Part shown: positions 9,335 through 60,001 of the stretch, piece after piece
Layout of the letters: every line of letters begins with the position of its first letter
How positions within the stretch are numbered: position 1 is the first letter of the stretch
Source: Owenia fusiformis
Lineage: Eukaryota; Annelida; Polychaeta; Sabellida; Oweniidae
Direction of reading: 5' to 3'
DNA: 64,000 bases
NCBI GenBank assembly: GCA_903813345.2
Contig: CAIIXF020000007.1
Span: 22,929,564-22,993,563, forward strand
Notes under the pieces: generated by a model
The model's input: only the letters and a program-made list of their open reading frames with translations
Databases searched by the model: none
What the model was told of the DNA's origin: nothing
Made by a program: the position numbers and the translations under genes

Positions 9335-10603
9335 ATTAAATGTAACCTGACAGACATGACATAGGAACACGTGGGTGATATGGGAATGAGGTTACTGTCA
9401 TCAGTTGTTTACAATAGACTATTACAATTATTATACATGTACATGTATAGTGAACCTATTGATTAAATGTAACCTGACAGATATGACATTGGAACACGTG
9501 GGTGATATGGGAATGAGGTTATTGTCATCAGTTGTTTACAATAGACAATTACAATTATTATACATGTACATGTATAGCTAACCTATTGATTAAATGTAAC
9601 CTGACAGATATGACATTGGAACACGTGGGTGATATGGGAATGAGGTTATTGTCATCAGTTGTTTACAATAGACAATTACAATTATTATACATGTACATGT
9701 ATAGCTAACCTATTGATTAAATGTAACCTGACAGATATGACATTGGAACACGTGGGTGATATGGGAATGAGGTTATTGTCATCAGTTGTTTACAATAGAC
9801 AATTACAATTATTATACATGTACATGTATAGTGAACCTATTGATTAAATGTAACCTGACAGATATGACATTGGAACACGTGGGTGATATGGGAATGAGGT
9901 TACTGTCATCAGTTGTTTACAATAGACAATTACAATTATTATACATGTACATGTATAGTGAACCTATTGATTAAATGTAACCTGACAGATATGACATTGG
10001 AACACGTGGGTGATATGGGAATGAGGTTACTGTCATCAGTTGTTTACAATAGACAATTACAATTATTATACATGTACATGTATAGTGAATCTATTGATTA
10101 AATGTAACCTGACAGATATGACATTGGAACACGTGGGTGATATGGGAATGAGGTTATTGTCATCAGTTGTTTACAATAGACAATTACAATTATTATACAT
10201 GTACATGTATAGTGAACCTATTGATTAAATGTAACCTGACAGATATGACATTGGAACACGTGGGTGATATGGGAATGAGGTTACTGTCATCAGTTGTTTA
10301 CAATAGACAATTACAATTATTATACATGTACATGTATAGTGAACCTATTGATTAAATGTAACCTGACAGATATGACATTGGAACACGTGGGTGATATGGG
10401 AATGAGGTTATTGTCATCAGTTGTTTACAATAGACAATTACAATTATTATACATGTACATGTATAGTGAACCTATTGATTAAATGTAACCTGACAGATAT
10501 GACAGAGGAACACGTGGGTGATATGGGAATGAGGTTACTGTCATCAGTTGTTTACAATAGACAATTACAATTATTATACATGTACATGTATAGTGAATCT
10601 ATA
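9335..10603. repeat. Minisatellite, ten copies of a 127-bp unit
   Basis: Ten head-to-tail units with the landmark ATGTAACCTGACAG at a 127-bp period from about 9340 to 10490. Units differ at only a few sites (for example GAGGTTATTG or GAGGTTACTG, GTGAACC or GCTAACC). Each unit has a CACGTG E-box and the palindrome TACATGTACATGTA. The first unit is preceded by an inverted copy of its own start (9318-9358, TGTCTGT..GTTACATT/AATGTAAC..ACAGACA). Each repeat also gives a spurious 62-codon open frame. The array sits just beyond the MIOS 3' end. Confidence 0.93.
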
Positions 10604-14000: not shown

Positions 14001-17000
14001 AATAATTGATATTTTTTAAATTCCATGAATTCTGCTATTCTACCACAGTCCTACGCCATGTGTATTGATATCAAGGACATTATATGTGAGCCGTGATGTC
14101 AACACAACTGTTTACCATGACCATGCGATATGCATTGAAAATATTGCTTATTGTTTCTTAAAAACAGCTTTAATGGTGATTTTTTTGAACTTCTACTCCC
14201 ATAACGTATATGTTTTTGTGAACAAAATCGGGCCAACGGTATTTGAGTTATTGCCCGGACAGACGGATGGACGGATGTACGTACGGACAGACGGACGGAC
14301 AGACGGACGGAGGCGTTCCCTTTATCCTTTCGAACTTCGTTGGGTGGGATAATTATGCATCAAGTTCGTCGATAATTTCTAACTGGTTAATAAAATATGT
14401 TTCTGACCAGCTCTTAAAAGGGGTTGTATGATATGTCATACTCATTAAAAAATAACGCGATTTATAATGTCCATATGTTTTGTATCCTCCAACACATGCT
14501 CAACATATTCAATTTCCTAACAAATTAGATATAATTGAGAATTTAGCTAACACTCATTTAAATACTACATTGGATGAGTCTCATATCTGAAAATTATTCT
14601 TTGAAATCCTTTATGTGCATTGATTGATGAAATCTTAATGTTTGGAGGATAGAAAAAATTGATGTTTTCATTGTCTGTCATTTAAGAAGTAAATCGAAAT
14701 CTTAAACGAATGATGCATCAGCAGCAATGTTAATTTAATCAGTGTGTTGGAGGAAACAAAATATTTAACAAATGGTATTTGCATACAAAAAGTATTTCAT
14801 TGTATCACCACAAACAAAACAAAACTTTGTTTTTTGACAAAGAATCATCATTTTAGCTGTTTTTGTGAAATAGCAATATTTTCAGTGTACATTGCATGAT
14901 TTAGATAACCAGTTGTGATGACTTTAAAATAGCACACATCAAATGTCGCTGGTATCAACACACACAACGCAGGCTTAAGTAGAACAACTGATACAACTGA
15001 AAATTTCAATTATTGTAAATTTGCCCATATAAGGTTTCTCACTTGACTCAGAGCGTAGGGCCTTGAAACATCATGCAAGATCAATGTGTAGAAACAATTT
15101 ATTCTGCCATATTTTGCATACTATACATGAGTGCCTATTAAAAAGTTATTTGCATTTTTGTGTTGCAGCAAATCTGATGAGAAAGAACTTCACCAATCGT
15201 GGAAAGTGAATTTTTGTTTTTCCTTTCAAGATCCAATGTATTGGGCCAGTACTTAAATTTTACAGGGTGACACAAAAATGTCCAAAATCAGAGGGTTGAA
15301 TTCTTTTGTGTCACCCTGTGCTTGACAGGTATCTTTTATCTTTTCTATTCCCTACTTACTTGAACCATTCTGTTATATGTTCAGCATGGCCACCATGTCG
15401 ACATGTTTGACACCAGGTGAACCATTCTCGTAATTTTGTTAACTTTCCATTCTCTCCTAAAATGTATATTTTATATACTTTAAACAAAATTAATTTTGAG
15501 CCGTCACAACAAATTTTGCCAAAATTTTATATTCAAATGCAAAATATCTTTAAAGCCAACTTTTCATTGCTGCATTTTTCTGTCAATCAAATTAAAAATC
15601 TGTCCAATTTCACTGTTACAATTGACAGCTGCAACGAAGATTTCGATTATTATAAATTTCAGGATACAAATTCAGACAATCTGATCTGAGAATTTGTTTT
15701 ATCTTATTATAATTTTCAATTTCTATTTGTATGAAATTATCTGTTCTTATTATAACATTTAGTACTAACCAGTGGAATCCCTAGGTACGGCAAGAGCTGA
15801 TCCTGCAGCAGTTCCCATATTAATGAGACATAGTGCACAGCGAGGTAGAGGTTTCCTACAGCCTGGACAACTCTCAATCTAGAACATATTAATGAGACAT
15901 AGAGCACAGCTAGGACAACTCTCAATCTAGAACATATTAATGAGACATAGTGCACAGCGAGGTAGAGGTTTCCTACAGCCTGGACAACTCTCAATCTAGA
16001 ACATATTAATGAGACATAGAGCACAGCTAGGACAACTCTCAATCTAGAACATATTAATGAGACATAGTGCACAGCGAGGTAGAGGTTTCCTACAGCCTGG
16101 ACAACTCTCAATCTAGAACATATTAATGAGACATAGATCACAGCGAGGTAGAGGTTTCCTACAGCCTGGACAACTCTCAATCTAGAACATATTAATAAGA
16201 CATAGAGCACAGCTTGGACAATTCTCAATCTAGAACATATCAATGAGACATAGAGCACAGCCTCAGACAATGCTCAATATAGAACATATTAATGAGACAT
16301 AGAGCACAGCTAGGACAACTCTCAATCTAAAACATATTAATGAGACATAGTGCACAGCGAGGTAGAGGTTTCCTACAGCCTGGACAACTCTCAATCTAGA
16401 ACATATTAATGAGACATAGAGCACAGCTAGGACAACTCTTAATCTAAAACATATTAATGAGACATAGTGCACAGCGAGGTAGAGGTTTCCTACAGCCTGG
16501 ACAACTCTCAATCTAGAACATATTAATGAGACATAGAGCACAGCGAGGTAGAGGTTTCCTACAGCCTGGACAACTCTCAATCTAGAACATATTAATGAGA
16601 CATAAAGCACAGCTAGGACAACTCTTAATCTAAAACATATTAATGAGACATAGAGCACAGCTAGGACAACTCTCAATCTAGAACATATCAATGAGACATA
16701 GAGCACAGCTAGGACAACTCTTAATCTAAAACATATTAATGAGACATAGAGCACAGCTAGGACAACTCTTAATCTAAAACATATTAATGAGACATAGAGC
16801 ACAGCTTGGACAATTCTCAATCTAAAACATATTAATGAGACATAGTGCACAGCGAGGTAGAGGTTTCCTACAGCCTGGACAACTCTTAATCTAAAACATA
16901 TTAATGAGACATAGTGCACAGCGAGGTAGAGGTTTCCTACAGCCTGGACAACTCTCAATCTAGAACATATTAATGAGACATAAAGCACAGCTAGGACAAC

Positions 17001-20000
17001 TCTTAATCTAAAACATATTAATGAGACATAGTGCACAGCTTGGGCAATTTTCAATCTAGAACATATCAATGAGACATAGAGCACAGTCTGGACAACTCTC
17101 AATCTAGAACATATTAATGAGACATAGAGCACAGCTAGGACAACTCTTAATCTAAAACATATTAATGAGACATAGAGCACAGCTAGGACAACTCTTAATC
17201 TAAAACATATTAATGAGACATAGTGCACAGCGAGGTAGAGGTTTCCTACAGCCTGGACAACTCTCAATCTAGAACATATTAATGAGACATAGAGCACAGC
17301 TAGGACAACTCTCAATCTAAAACATATTAATGAGACATAGTGCACAGCGAGGTAGAGGTTTCCTACAGCCTGGACAACTCTCAATCTAGAACATATTAAT
17401 GAGACATAGAGCACAGCTAGGACAACTCTTAATCTAAAACATATTAATGAGACACAAATCACATATAAAATAAATTGTTAAAATCCAAAAGTACATGACT
17501 GGAACATTCTCATATCATTTTTTGTTGTAATCTCGGAAATGATGATGTCATCGTAAGAAAAAAACAATACAATCTTAATCATACTTTAGTTTTGTTGGTC
17601 GGAGATCCTCCAAATGATGGATAGTTATGCCTTCGCCTGCCAGCTGCTAACATGTTGTATGCTATGGACTTGCCACAGAAGTTACAGCTTACAAAGATCT
17701 GACTAGCTGGTCGTGCCCCTGTGTCACATTTTTGCCGGTGAACATCAAATTCTGCCCTGGAATTGTAGTTTTTAAAAATTAATATTTCTTTGTGACCAAA
17801 TACTAATCATTGTTTTGGCATTATTCAAAGGATTGGTATCGATATTGCGAACTGAATTGAACACGTGTTTCTCTTAAACCAGTCATCAAAAAATTCTGAA
17901 AATTTTACACATCGTCAATCTAATGATCATCTTTTGAATGGTAACAGTTAAATTTGAAAACAATATAATATATACTTTTCTCTATATTGTTTTAGAAAAC
18001 ACATCAGACACTTTTTTGTTCTTGTGGTATCATATGTTTGGAATGAAACAAAACATCTATCCAAACCTCATTGGAACAAAACAAAATCTACACAACTTAG
18101 TGTTTCGGTCTCTCAATATTGTAATTGTACAAACAGAAGTTTGGTTGATTAATTGATTAGTTGATCTTATTAATGAAATCAAAGGTTTACTTTAAATTTT
18201 ATCTATTTTGTTTTTTTTTGTTTTAATTTTATGAATACTTTTTGTTAAATCAAACAAATTTTCCTTTGTGTAATTATAATATTAAGAGGTCTAAGAAAAT
18301 GTTGTACATGCTATTTTGTTCCAACAAGGTTCAGAAAGATGTTTTATTTCATTCTTAAGAATTGGTAGAAATGGAACAAAAAACAATTGCACTAAAAATC
18401 AAAAAATGCACACATCGAAAAATATATAATATATTAAAAAAAAAAATGTAAATAATTTTCGCATTAAATTGTTGTCAATGGGTGACCATTACATAAATGA
18501 CCATGTTTTTTACAGAATGTTTTCAATTATTGGTTTAAAAGAAACACAATGTTGAATTCAGTTCGCCATATCGATACCAATCCTTTATACCAAGATAGAA
18601 CATACATAATTCTTTTACTTATACATCATTTAGGTTTTTGGGAGTAGTATGTTGATAAAAATTAGATCACATTTCATTTGTTTTTGAACATTTTAAAACG
18701 AATAATCATTTTAATAGAAGATATTATTACTGAGCATACTGTCTACTGTCAGCCTTTTTATAGATAAACATTCATACATGTCATGATTTTACCTTGAGCT
18801 ACATATTGATAATTGGGTCACATTTCATTTTTTCTTGGTATGCAGAGTAATACTAATTTCATCATGCTTTGGGAGGAGTTGGGTTGACATTCATTCACAA
18901 TTCACATGCCTCGTACATGTTTTTTGTATTATAACAGTCCAATGATTCATTTCAAGTACCTGGTGATGATCTGCCAGTATATTCACATAGGAAAACATCA
19001 TAAACTGGTTTCAAAGAATAGACTAAGTGTAAAATCTTGGAATGGAAATGTTCATGTATCAACAATTCACTTGACCAGACTAAAGAGTAATGGTATCAAA
19101 TATGGAAAAGTGATTTAAATAGAGAAACCAGTAAACCTGAAGGTTTTGGGCACATTCCCAAAGTTCTGTAAGAACTAATCGTAATATAAGTGTCCTCACC
19201 TCTGATGCCAAAGCTTCCACTGGTCCAGCAGGTCCCGATAGCTGAAAATCAGTATAAAATTGTGTAATACATCATTAAATGTGGTAAATATAATACATGA
19301 GTAATTAGTCATCTTACCATACACAGATTGATTGCTTTTTAATCAAATAACATTTAAAAACTTCGAGAAATGTTCACACAATTACATAATGTATCAGTTT
19401 TGATCCAGGCAATACAACTTTTTTCATATTAAATAAATAATAGCAATTTAAAGTACTTTCAATGCAACTCAAAACCCTTGGATCCTTTGCTTTATTTTAT
19501 ATTTACCTTTCAATCCATGTTAAAACCCTTTGATCCTTTGCTATATCTTATATTTACCTTTCAATCCAGGTTAAAACCCTTTGATCCTTTGCTATATCTT
19601 ATATTTACCTTTCAATCCGGGTTAAAACCCTTTGATCCTTTGCTATATCTTATATTTACCTTTCAATCCAGGTTAAAACCCTTTGATCCTTTGATATGTC
19701 CCCTGGGAATGCCTGAATGACAACAAGGGCAGCCGTTTGCACATCTCCTGTATTATCAACATAGTTCTGTAACAGCTCAAGTCCCAATTTTGTCAGACCT
19801 ATAGGGATGAATATATTAAATGAAGTTCACTCCTCACATTTGCAGAAAGTGTCAATTTCATCATGTTTGAAACCCCTGTTCTACAAAAGACTCTTGAGTG
19901 ATTTTCATCAAATTCACTTAATAAAGTTGTACTCAAACCATTTTACTAGATTTAGATCTATTCATGCTATCTTACCGTATGAAGGCCGAACTTTACGATG

Positions 20001-23000: not shown

Positions 23001-26000
23001 CATTGAGAAATGTACAGGCGAATGCCACTCTGTCTTGAACCTCAAGTCCCTCCTCTTGCTAATATAAAACAATAGATATCATATGTGACATTTAGTACAG
23101 AATTTCTAAATATGCAGGTGAATGAGCTTCCTGGTCATCTCAACCCCAAGTCAACTCAACCCAGTAAAACTCAACCCCAAGTCAACTCAACCCCAAGTCA
23201 AGTCAACCCCACTAAAACTCAACCCCAAGTCAACTCAACCCTGTAAAACTCAACCCCAGTAAAACTCAACCCCTATATATTTCTATATATTGATAAACTT
23301 ATAAGAAAGTTTATTTCATAAAAATAATTCTGATTATTCAGTTTGTGATTTTCATTCTTTAGACCATGTCATTTTATTAATCTTGCTAATACATTTGTTT
23401 TGTTGTGATCCCTATGAGGTTGACACTCGTGATTATTTGGAAAACTGGATCATGACCATTGCTTTCCAGGGGCATAGCCAGCTTTCAGTCAAAAAATCAG
23501 GTTTTCAGTCAGGGGGTGCCGATCGTGGCATAAGTGAGCCAAAAAAAAGATATGTTTTGACAAAAAATGATGCAACTTCCTTCAAAATTGGGGGAGGGTG
23601 TGTGCGCACCCCTCCTGGCTACGCCTATATGCTTTCAGTCTATTAATTAGTAAATGTTAATGATTTTGTAAATGCATGTTCATAAAAATAAAAAGTTATA
23701 TTACATTGTTAATTATTTCTAAATTATCTAAAATTTGATTTCAAAAGATCAGTCTTAAATTAAATAATAGTGACAACTTGATGAATTATCCTTGAGCTTA
23801 ACCGTTTTTTTGGCACACTCTTACAACTTTCTATTCAAAGTATCATGCAAAATGCTAGATTTTCAGAAATGAATGACTTAAATTATTCATCATAAAAAAC
23901 ATTGCACAAATGAATAGGGTTGAGTTCTACTGGGGTTGAGTTTTACAGGGTTGAGTTGACTTCGGGTTGAGTTTTACTGGGGTTGACTTGACTTGGGGTT
24001 GAATTGACTTGGGGTTGAGTTGGACTGGGTTGAGATGACTTGGGGTTGAGATGACCTGTCACCGTGAATGACACTGTTAGAGGGAGAGGGAAGGTCTAAA
24101 GAGGCAATGTGAAGGTTGACATGAAAACAATTTTTCCTTCGGGGTCATTCTTTGTCTGTCATTACTGATGAGAATATGTCACATTCTGAAATCGGAGACA
24201 TGCCCAACAGATCAATTTAGTTATCATTCATTATCAATCCCTAGGAGTCATGCTTAATGTGAAGGATGGAATTTTCCATTGATATTAGTGAGAGGCGGAG
24301 ACTCATGCTAAACCACCCCTGTTGAAATTAATATTCCAAGGTTGCAGAATGTAAGGCAAATATTCAGGGCATCACATGACATTCTTAGAATTGAAAGGTC
24401 AAAAGAATTGAATTCATTATACCTACCAGAACATCTTCATAATTATCATGAGTTCCTGTGAGGAAGGCAAACATAGCTCTAAGGTAAGGGTTCATAAGTT
24501 GAGATCTTGATGTGCTGCACATTTCTCGCCAAAGTGTGTTTTTGTCATCAGTGAAACCACTGAGTGCCATAGCAACAACATTCAAATTAACGCCTGAAAA
24601 TATGAAGAAAAAAAATTAATTTTTTTCATTTATTAACATATTATGTACATCCTGGCGATCCAGAAGTGAGATCAAAGATGTTGCCATTTGAATTCTACTG
24701 ACTTAGGTTTCCTGAGTTTGATACGGATGTCCCTCAAACAAAACTTATGCAAAATGTCACCACCTACCATTTGTTACAGATGCCAAATGCTAAACACCAA
24801 CAAACCAACCAACGAATGCCAACCACCACTCACAAAATTGTTGGAGACAATATAAAACCAGAATAACGGCAACGCCAAAGCGTAGCGAATCCCATCGAAC
24901 AGAAATGGCTGGCATTTTTACAAACGAAGCGCAAATATCATAAAACAACATACCAGAAAGGCCACCATTTTCAAAATGGTGGCTCACTAGCCAAGTTGTC
25001 ATCAGAAAAAATAATATGCTTTTAAGTAGCCACCTCTAAAATTTTTGAAAAATCGCACACGTACTTGTAAAATAACACACATGAAAATGGTGGCCATTTT
25101 TCAAAATGGCCGACTACTCCCCAAAGTTTTATTAGACAATGTGCCATGCTTAAAGTATTCACATATCAATAATGAACAAAATCGCTCCACTACTTTTCGA
25201 GTTATAGTAAAATACGTTAAAATGGTGGCCATTTTTCAAAATGGCCACCTTCTACCAAAAGCGTCATTAGAAATAGACGGTGTGCCATGCTTATAGTATT
25301 CACAAACCAAATATGAACAAAATCGCTCTACTACTTTTCGAGTTATAGTAAAATACGTTAAAATGGCCACCTCTAAAATTTTTGAAAAATCGCACACGTA
25401 CTTGTAAAATAACACACATGAAAATGGTGGCCATTTTTCAAACCTTCTACCAAAAGCGTCATTAGAAATAGACGGTGTGCCATGCTTATAGTATTCACAA
25501 ACCAAATATGAACAAAATCGCTCTACTACTTTTCGAGTTATAGTAAAATACGTTAAATTGGCGGCCATTTTCAAAATTGTTTTCAAAATGGCCGCCTTCT
25601 ACCAAAAGTGTCATAGGACAGTGTGCCATGCTTATAGTATTCACATACCAAATATGAACAAAATCGCTCCACTACTTTTCGAGTTATGTAAAATACGTTA
25701 AAATGGCGGCCATTTTTCAAAATGGCCGCCTTCTACCAAAAGTGTCTTTAGACAGTGTGCAATGCTTATAGTATTCACACACCAAATATGAACAAAATCG
25801 CTCCACTATTTTTTGAGTTACAGCAAAAATCGTAAAATGACGAGTAAAGGCCGCCATTTTTCAAGATGGCTGCCATGTGCTTCTTTAATATCTACATTTG
25901 TAGCATTATTAATGTCCTTTATAATTTTTTTACATTTAAAACATATTGCTATTACAGTTTTACATATTGCACCTAAATTACTGTAAAATCGTCACTAAAA

Positions 26001-49148: not shown

Positions 49149-51298
49149 CAGTGGCGTAGCGTGGGTATTTTGTGAGTGTACGCCACGAGTGGGCGACATA
49201 GACGTGCTCTGGGGGGGGGGGGGGTGTTCGGGAGAGGTCCCCCCAAGAAAATTTGAAAATGAGATTGCATTTGAAGCGTTCTGGGGCGTTTGAAATACGA
49301 AATTCCGACTATTATGGACGAATTGAATGTAATATGATTATTAGCCATTTTTATCCATTTTTGAAGTGTGGAGCAAATCAATATAAAAATCAACTGTTTT
49401 CTAAAATTTGAGAATACGCTATGGCGTTTTATGCGTTATAAGAAAATTTGAAAATGAGATTGCATTTGAAGCGTTCTGGGGCGTTTGAAATACGAAATTC
49501 CGACTATTATGGACGAATTGAATGTAAATTATTAGCCATTTTTATCCATTTTTGAAGTGTGGAGCAAATCAATACAAGAACACAAATGTGTACAAAATGT
49601 CCCCACCTATGGGTGATCCTGTCAAATGGTTATCCTAAAAATGAGTAGACAAGACTTTACCGACACAATTTGATGACGGAAAATCCAAAATGGCCACCTT
49701 AAAATTTACCTAGAATGCCAAAAAACTAATCAGATCTAGATTTTCATACTAAGAATCATCCCTGAAAATTTGAAATTGATCTACAAAACGGTTCACCTAA
49801 AAACGCGTAGACAAGACTTTACGGGCAGGATTTTAAGACGGAAAATCCAAAATGGCTGCCTTGGCATTTATCCAGAATGCCAAAAAACTAATCAGATCTA
49901 GATTTTCATACTAAGAATCATCCCTGAAAATTTGAAATTGATCTACAAAACGGTTCACCTAAAAACGCATAGACAAGACTTTACAGGCAGGATTTTAAGA
50001 CGGAAAATCCAAAATGGCTGCCTTGACATTTATCCAGAATGCCAAAAAACTAATCAGATCTAGATTTTCATATTAAGAATCATCCCTGAAAATTTGAAAT
50101 TGATCTACCAAACGGTTCACCGGGAAGTGCATAGACAAAACTCTACAGACAAGATTTTTGGACGGAAAATCCAAAATGGCTGCCTTGGCATTTACCCAGA
50201 ATGCCCAAATACTAATCAGATCTAGATTTTCATACTAAGAATCATCCCTGAAAATTTGAAATTGATCTACAGAACTGTTCACCTGGAAATGCGTAGACAA
50301 GACTTTACAGACAATATTTTAGGACGGAAAATCCAAAATGGCTGCCTTGACAATTACCCAGAATGCCAAAAAACTAATCAGTTGTACATTTTCATATTAA
50401 GGATCATCCCTGAAAAATTGAAATTGATCTACCAAACAGTTCACCTGAAAACGCGTAGACAAGACTTTACAGACAAGATTTTAGGACGGAAAATCCAAAA
50501 TGGCTGCCTTGACATTTACCCAGAATGCCAAAAAACTAATCAGATCTAGATTTTTATACTAAGAATCATCCCTGAAAATCAAGAATTGATCCACCAAACG
50601 GTTCACCTGAAAACACGTAGACAAGACTCCACAGACAAGATTTTAGGACGGAAAAATCCAAAATGGCTGACAATAAAAAAGTGATCATGAGTTTTTGCTG
50701 ATTTCTTTTTACAAAATTATCACATATAAATACTGTTAACAACAACATAGGCTTTAACAACAAAGTACATCTGAAATTATTTATAAAGCTACTAAATAGT
50801 TAGAATATGAAAACTCAAAAACACCATTCAATATGATACAAAGTATTATCGTGCGCTAACTTTTCTTAAGACATTCAAAATGGCTGACATGACTGAGCTA
50901 ACAGGTCCAAAACCTAATCAGATCTAGAATGAAGTGAGCTGAACAAGATGTTAAAGTTTTAAAAGCAACTGTGAAGCCGTTTTTTCTTAAAGTTTGCAGA
51001 CAAGGATTTTAGCATTTGACTTCAAAATGGCCGACAGGAAGTAGGTATCGAGTTAATTTTTTTTCATCCACATCTGTATGCACTCATAAGTTATCCCTGA
51101 AAATTTGAAGGTGATATCTGTAGCGGTTTTGGAGAAAACTCCCGGACGTACGGACGGACAGACGGACGGACAGACGGACGCGCCTAGGCCGACAATATGG
51201 CCCCACACTATGTGGTGGGGACATAATAAAAATCAACTGTTTTCTAAAATTTGAGAATACGCTATGGCGTTTTATGCGTATATGACGCTACGCCATTG
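49149..51298. mobile_element. GTGGCGTAGCG TIR element interrupted by a nested element
   Basis: Ends CAGTGGCGTAGCG (49149) and CGCTACGCCATTG (51298) are inverted repeats, with TGCAT at both flanks. Inside, about 190 bp (AAGAAAATTTGAAAATGAGA ... AGCAAATCAATA) is tandemly duplicated at 49225-49435 and 49438-49575. The second copy stops at about 49575 and resumes at about 51227 (AAAAATCAACTGTTTTCTAA), exactly where the nested element (49581-51224) ends. Confidence 0.75.
49581..51224. mobile_element. Nested ATGTCCCCACC element with 166-bp internal tandem units, copy 1
   Basis: TIR-like ends ATGTCCCCACC (49598) and GGTGGGGACAT (51224). The left part is about six tandem units of about 166 bp: GGTTCACCT(G/A)AAAACGCGTA, GACAAGACTTTACAGACAAG, AAAATCCAAAATGGCTGCC, CCAGAATGCCAAAAAACTAA, TAAGAATCATCCCTGAAAA. 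The right part is unique, ending in a GGACGGACAGACGG tail and CGCCTAGGCCGACAATATGG. No transposase is present. The 97-codon open frame 50256-50549 is two repeat units read through. Confidence 0.8.

Positions 51299-52431: not shown

Positions 52432-60001
<7,570 letters not shown>

Follow-up and report, generated by a model that had tools for sequence, protein, structure and literature searches.

The start of one exon of the MIOS gene of Owenia fusiformis, together with its 3' splice site, is repeated 28 times in the intron that precedes it. We consider it likely that this array is a mirage, that is, a close-to-neutral minisatellite that straddles a splice border and is tolerated there. Judged from the DNA, it shows every testable structural feature of the mirages known from lancelets and is a case of a known class in a host outside that group. 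A second array of the opposite kind lies in the same gene, and comparable arrays were found in each of the three other gene families that we sampled.

The MIOS gene and its two arrays

The window, by which we mean the whole stretch of 64,000 nucleotides analysed, carries a gene that the first-pass annotation named MIOS. This identity was borne out by the translation of the exon at 15878-15770 and the preceding exon, which matches GATOR2 MIOS (PDB 9lvj chain A, E = 1.7e-21). With an approximate human MIOS sequence as query, 20 co-linear matches extend over 39160-11053, of which three have E > 0.01; residues 405-447 and 478-519 of this query found no match in the window search. All 28 DNA matches of the array exon across the genome lie at the MIOS locus. 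In transcript direction, the features are as follows, with a slash at each splice site.

11011-39160, minus strand: span of the MIOS gene, from the 20 co-linear matches to human MIOS
19660-19798, minus strand: MIOS exon, ending in AG, with its real donor GTAAATATAA at 19659
19456-19697, minus strand: donor-type array, 51 bp x 4.7, with exon end and donor in each unit
17585-17756, minus strand: upstream MIOS exon, ending in TNKTK; donor AAA/GTATGA at 17584, phase 0
17434-17454, minus strand: partial, truncated copy at the upstream edge of the acceptor-type array, about 15 nt of exon plus TTTTAG, ahead of unit 1
15879-17433, minus strand: acceptor-type array of 28 units, each joining 6 nt of intron (TTCTAG or TTTTAG) to 63 or 42 nt from the exon start
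16230-16278, minus strand: decayed 49-bp unit, acceptor TTCTAT, frame shifted
15770-15878, minus strand: real MIOS exon; acceptor TTCTAG/ATTGAG, donor ACTG/GTTAGT

The modelled splice junction joins 17585 to 15878 in phase 0. It replaces the proposed junction 17756/15878, since the upstream exon begins at 17756. The intron thus defined (17584-15879) measures 1,706 nt, of which the array fills 1,555 nt (91%) before running into the intact exon, whose reading frame is open and matches MIOS.

As had been predicted, the acceptor and exon start recur in 69-bp and 48-bp units before the real exon. Read on the minus strand, the units follow each other head-to-tail, with starts from 17433 to 15926, and comprise ten of 69 bp, 17 of 48 bp and one of 49 bp (1,555 bp in total), in the transcript order BABABBBBBAABBBBBAABABbBAABAB (A = 69, B = 48, b = 49 bp). 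The shorter unit is the longer one minus 21 bp, with C-P-S-C retained, in agreement with the clean deletion and the preserved C-x2-C spacing described earlier; GCTGT can be read at both edges of the deleted stretch. Over the 63 copied bases, seven of the ten long units are identical to the exon and the other three differ from it at 1, 1 and 2 positions. Together with Tandem Repeats Finder (TRF) scores of up to 1,792 for rows inside the array, this identity excludes a chance origin. TRF further reports a higher-order period of 378 bp at 95% match, so that blocks of units have themselves been duplicated in turn. A coding role for the 404-aa stop-to-stop frame of the array (16263-17477, minus strand) was rejected, as it is not the MIOS frame and results from units whose length is a multiple of 3.

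The units show that a segment of 69 bp (6 nt of intron and 63 nt of exon) was copied in tandem, that the loss of 21 bp between two GCTGT words produced the 48-bp form, and that the mixed array grew to 28 units. Growth would have proceeded by slippage or unequal exchange. Since a tandem duplication across a border should always leave one exon intact along with its splice site, namely the last copy for acceptors and the first for donors, and the remaining copies would be removed as intron, this growth may well be near neutral.

The donor-type array is the mirror image of the acceptor-type one, with the intact exon standing first. Its 51-bp unit consists of the last 41 nt of the exon and 10 nt of the donor. 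Four donors, the real one at 19659 and the decoys at 19608, 19557 and 19506, score 8.0 each, and reading past the real donor leads to an in-frame TAA.

Further repeats lie in the window. Just beyond the MIOS stop, at 9335-10602, is a 127-bp array of 10 copies (98% match) with the palindromic word TACATGTACATGTA. Two 16-bp arrays (23134-23273 and 23917-24055) stand about 640 bp apart, and their words GTCAACTCAACCCCAA and GGGTTGAGTTGACTTG look like mutual reverse complements. A 162-bp array family found at 49634-50669 and 53468-54675 is dispersed, occurring also in L029 (2462-3217), a myosin locus on C10. Separately, the zinc ribbon family PF17034, which also matches MIOS, has a second and better match at G000:C3:31640806-31640925 (plus strand).

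Splice signals and early stops

The first-pass annotation counted about 28 decoy 3' splice sites and had an in-frame TAG closing every unit. The 28 upstream units are there, and 27 of them keep the acceptor AG, the exception being TTCTAT before 16278. The TAG closes 26 of the 28. Unit 21 lacks it, and its frame continues to a TGA in the 49-bp unit 22, so entry at any upstream AG still leads to truncation, with a stop within one or two units.

Acceptors were scored with a matrix built from 12 other acceptors of MIOS. The real one reaches 3.1, and of the 27 decoys three score higher, 12 equal and 12 lower; none of the 92 other AGs in the array intron reaches its value. The 12 other acceptors score 6.7-14.6 on a matrix that was trained on them and is biased their way. 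Splicing at the real site may therefore be poor, to the extent that a scoring biased toward its training sites can suggest this. With just 6 nt of intron in each unit, the real site has a polypyrimidine and branch region that derives from exon sequence. For at least 117 nt on the upstream side and 63 nt on the downstream side, the decoy at 15995 has the same sequence as the real acceptor at 15878. With no local feature that marks the real acceptor among the decoys, the choice would have to rest on position or on the discarding of wrong transcripts. The spliceosome might take the last acceptor because no other is close enough to the downstream donor to give an exon of normal length, as exon definition would have it; alternatively, upstream acceptors may be chosen and the products lost through their early stops.

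Border-spanning arrays in other genes

Coding-derived arrays at their own exon had been considered rare. The second MIOS array, the arrays in other genes described here and the published lancelet mirages contradict this: such arrays are frequent in this genome, and the class is on record for lancelets (PMC3087553, PMC3902484).

Our sample comprised 58 loci, 30 with a myosin head and 28 with a kinesin domain, amounting to 168,031 distinct bases in 48 stretches. Arrays with a period of at least 20 make up 7.5% of these bases, and at least 11 distinct arrays span an exon border, one of them with a decayed donor. Five belong to the myosin-head loci, on the acceptor side in L016 and L019 and on the donor side in L010, L023 and L030. 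The exon of L019 is assigned by a presumed resemblance to myosin, and the array in L010 copies only 4 nt of exon. Six belong to the kinesin loci, on the acceptor side in L035 (also in L041), L047 and L055 and on the donor side in L039, L056 and L044. The L044 array, which spans a donor whose second copy lacks the GT, is one of the 11 but does not enter the tally of 14 arrays used below. Exons outside the HMM matches were assigned by eye and arrays judged likewise, and the loci opened in detail were L007, L010, L015, L016, L019, L021, L023, L030, L034, L035, L039, L044, L046, L047, L055, L056, L059 and L061, which makes the array counts lower bounds. The arrays inspected in L007, L015, L021, L034 and L046 were judged not to span a border. 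Wherever the real exon lies within the examined stretch it stands at the expected end of its array; that of L019 lies beyond its stretch.

Two further loci, outside that count, show the same anatomy. In L059 (G000:C2:23265900-23269900), which was picked because of its visible array and stands outside the 58-locus rate, a kinesin exon with its acceptor follows 17 copies of itself at 159 bp. Every copy closes in frame with KNKPVAL*, a design shared with MIOS. In L061 (G000:C1), one of 14 homeobox loci, the start of a homeobox exon with its acceptor has 13 upstream copies at about 76 bp; we take this Hox gene to be Scr-like.

Some observations from these families stand apart from the arrays. On G000:C9:37986009-37994334 (minus strand), upstream of a muscle-type myosin gene, there are twelve tandem matches to approximately the same myosin-head stretch (positions about 18-84), which look like a cluster of alternative exons. 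The nearest PDB match of the muscle myosin is to a protein presumably from scallop (501 bits), ahead of vertebrate cardiac (487) and squid (485) entries, the species being read from the entry codes; this is a weak taxonomic cue. The Hox gene L065 has KLTGP after its homeodomain, which we take to be a spiralian Lox5 mark. A search of the genome for GFP gave no match, which does not prove absence. The missing GFP match, the KLTGP motif and, more weakly, the myosin comparison led us to reject the lancelet host that the literature had first suggested. A COX1 search gave no match either.

In 14 arrays, AG or GT is kept by 121 of 123 decoys. Counted as distinct variants, two fall on 28 decoy dinucleotide sites versus 21 on 224 neighbouring sites (Fisher p = 1.0). 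This is the cleaned version of the count, an intermediate one having held spurious matches; an apparent conservation of the decoys (2/272 mismatches versus 129/2,992) was discarded because real copies, array edges and length shifts had entered the count. Five of the 14 arrays have a unit length divisible by 3, close to the one third that would be expected if coding imposed no constraint. Within the MIOS units, six of 13 distinct changes are synonymous versus 23% expected at random, an excess that is partly an artefact of deletion placement. Arrays occupy 11.7% of the MIOS span, which has at least 38 borders; a crude random placement predicts about four border overlaps and two are seen. Given these overlaps and the Fisher test, there is no sign of arrays seeking splice borders or of decoys being maintained.

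Alternative readings and relation to known systems

The array could be thought to act as a regulator, with upstream acceptors often used and the early-stop transcripts keeping MIOS, and with it mTORC1 control, at a level that is low or can be adjusted. The early stop behind every one of the 27 decoy AGs would suit such a role, as would a weak real acceptor that 15 of them equal or exceed and 12 fall below. However, arrays built in the same way occur in myosin, kinesin and Hox genes, the decoy dinucleotides bear no sign of selection, and we regard this reading as unlikely. Lancelet mirages also speak against it: their regular splicing is reported to be undisturbed (PMC3087553, PMC3902484), and the published RT-PCR (PMC3087553) counts against an array that modulates splicing. 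Still less probable is a stable MIOS isoform that starts from unit 1, ends in a partial zinc knuckle and has a role of its own. Unit 1 is the acceptor nearest the upstream donor and opens in the right frame, but it is among the lowest-scoring decoys (1.9), and its stop lies upstream of further exons. A stop so placed usually triggers decay.

Assembly errors are common in tandem arrays, and one lancelet mirage is called aberrantly assembled in the draft genome (PMC3087553). An inflated or collapsed copy number is nonetheless highly improbable here, given heterogeneous units in mixed order with unique variants and independent arrays of clean periods in several other genes. We give least credence of all to a damaged allele, a sole MIOS copy broken by the array and now decaying. 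The weak acceptor and the confinement of all DNA matches of the exon to this locus could be so interpreted, but past the array the exon still has an open, conserved zinc-knuckle sequence, and the downstream MIOS exons are readable.

A tolerated minisatellite of the mirage class fits the comparison with lancelets, where border-spanning minisatellites are described in Adh3 and the globins BflGb6 and BflGb9 (PMC3087553) and in PGBD5 and TnC (troponin C) (PMC3902484). In both hosts the unit spans the exon-intron border on either side, decoys often keep AG or GT, an intact exon stands at one end and variants are homogenised within a cluster. The MIOS array accordingly has a border-spanning unit of minisatellite length (48/69 bp), an intact end exon, concerted copies and a largely retained AG. 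It differs in its spiralian host, in its 28 units compared with six and three in two BflGb6 haplotypes, in a unit with only 6 nt of intron, which leaves the sequence just upstream of the real acceptor exon-derived, and in the presence of two arrays of opposite kind in one gene. Internal tandem repeats at exon-intron borders are also known from human genes in segmental duplications (PMC2812944). They share the minisatellite expansion at the border and the splice consequences, whereas the human cases involve recent paralogs, alternative transcripts and new introns, and the MIOS exon has no second DNA copy. Our limited literature search found no such arrays outside lancelets and human segmental duplications, spiralians included, which is no proof of absence. 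Rogers reportedly proposed a model in which introns are gained through tandem duplication of proto-splice sites. The starting event, a tandem duplication carrying splice signals, is the same, but MIOS has no new intron; an old one has grown.

With a host that is a spiralian and not a lancelet, the mirage class is widened, and introns that grow from their own exon are seen outside the group in which they were first described. Since the acceptor at 15878 and the decoy at 15995 are locally identical, the array offers an unengineered test of whether a 3' splice site is selected by position alone. It is conceivable, though we put it forward only tentatively and somewhat short of probable, that border-spanning minisatellites are a genome-wide habit of this spiralian, lengthening introns with copies of their own exons, reaching GATOR2, motor proteins and Hox genes, and leaving dozens of near-identical sites among which the choice falls solely by position relative to the opposite splice site. 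If so, they would constitute a natural experiment on exon definition and would supply a second animal lineage with material from which new introns and exons can arise.
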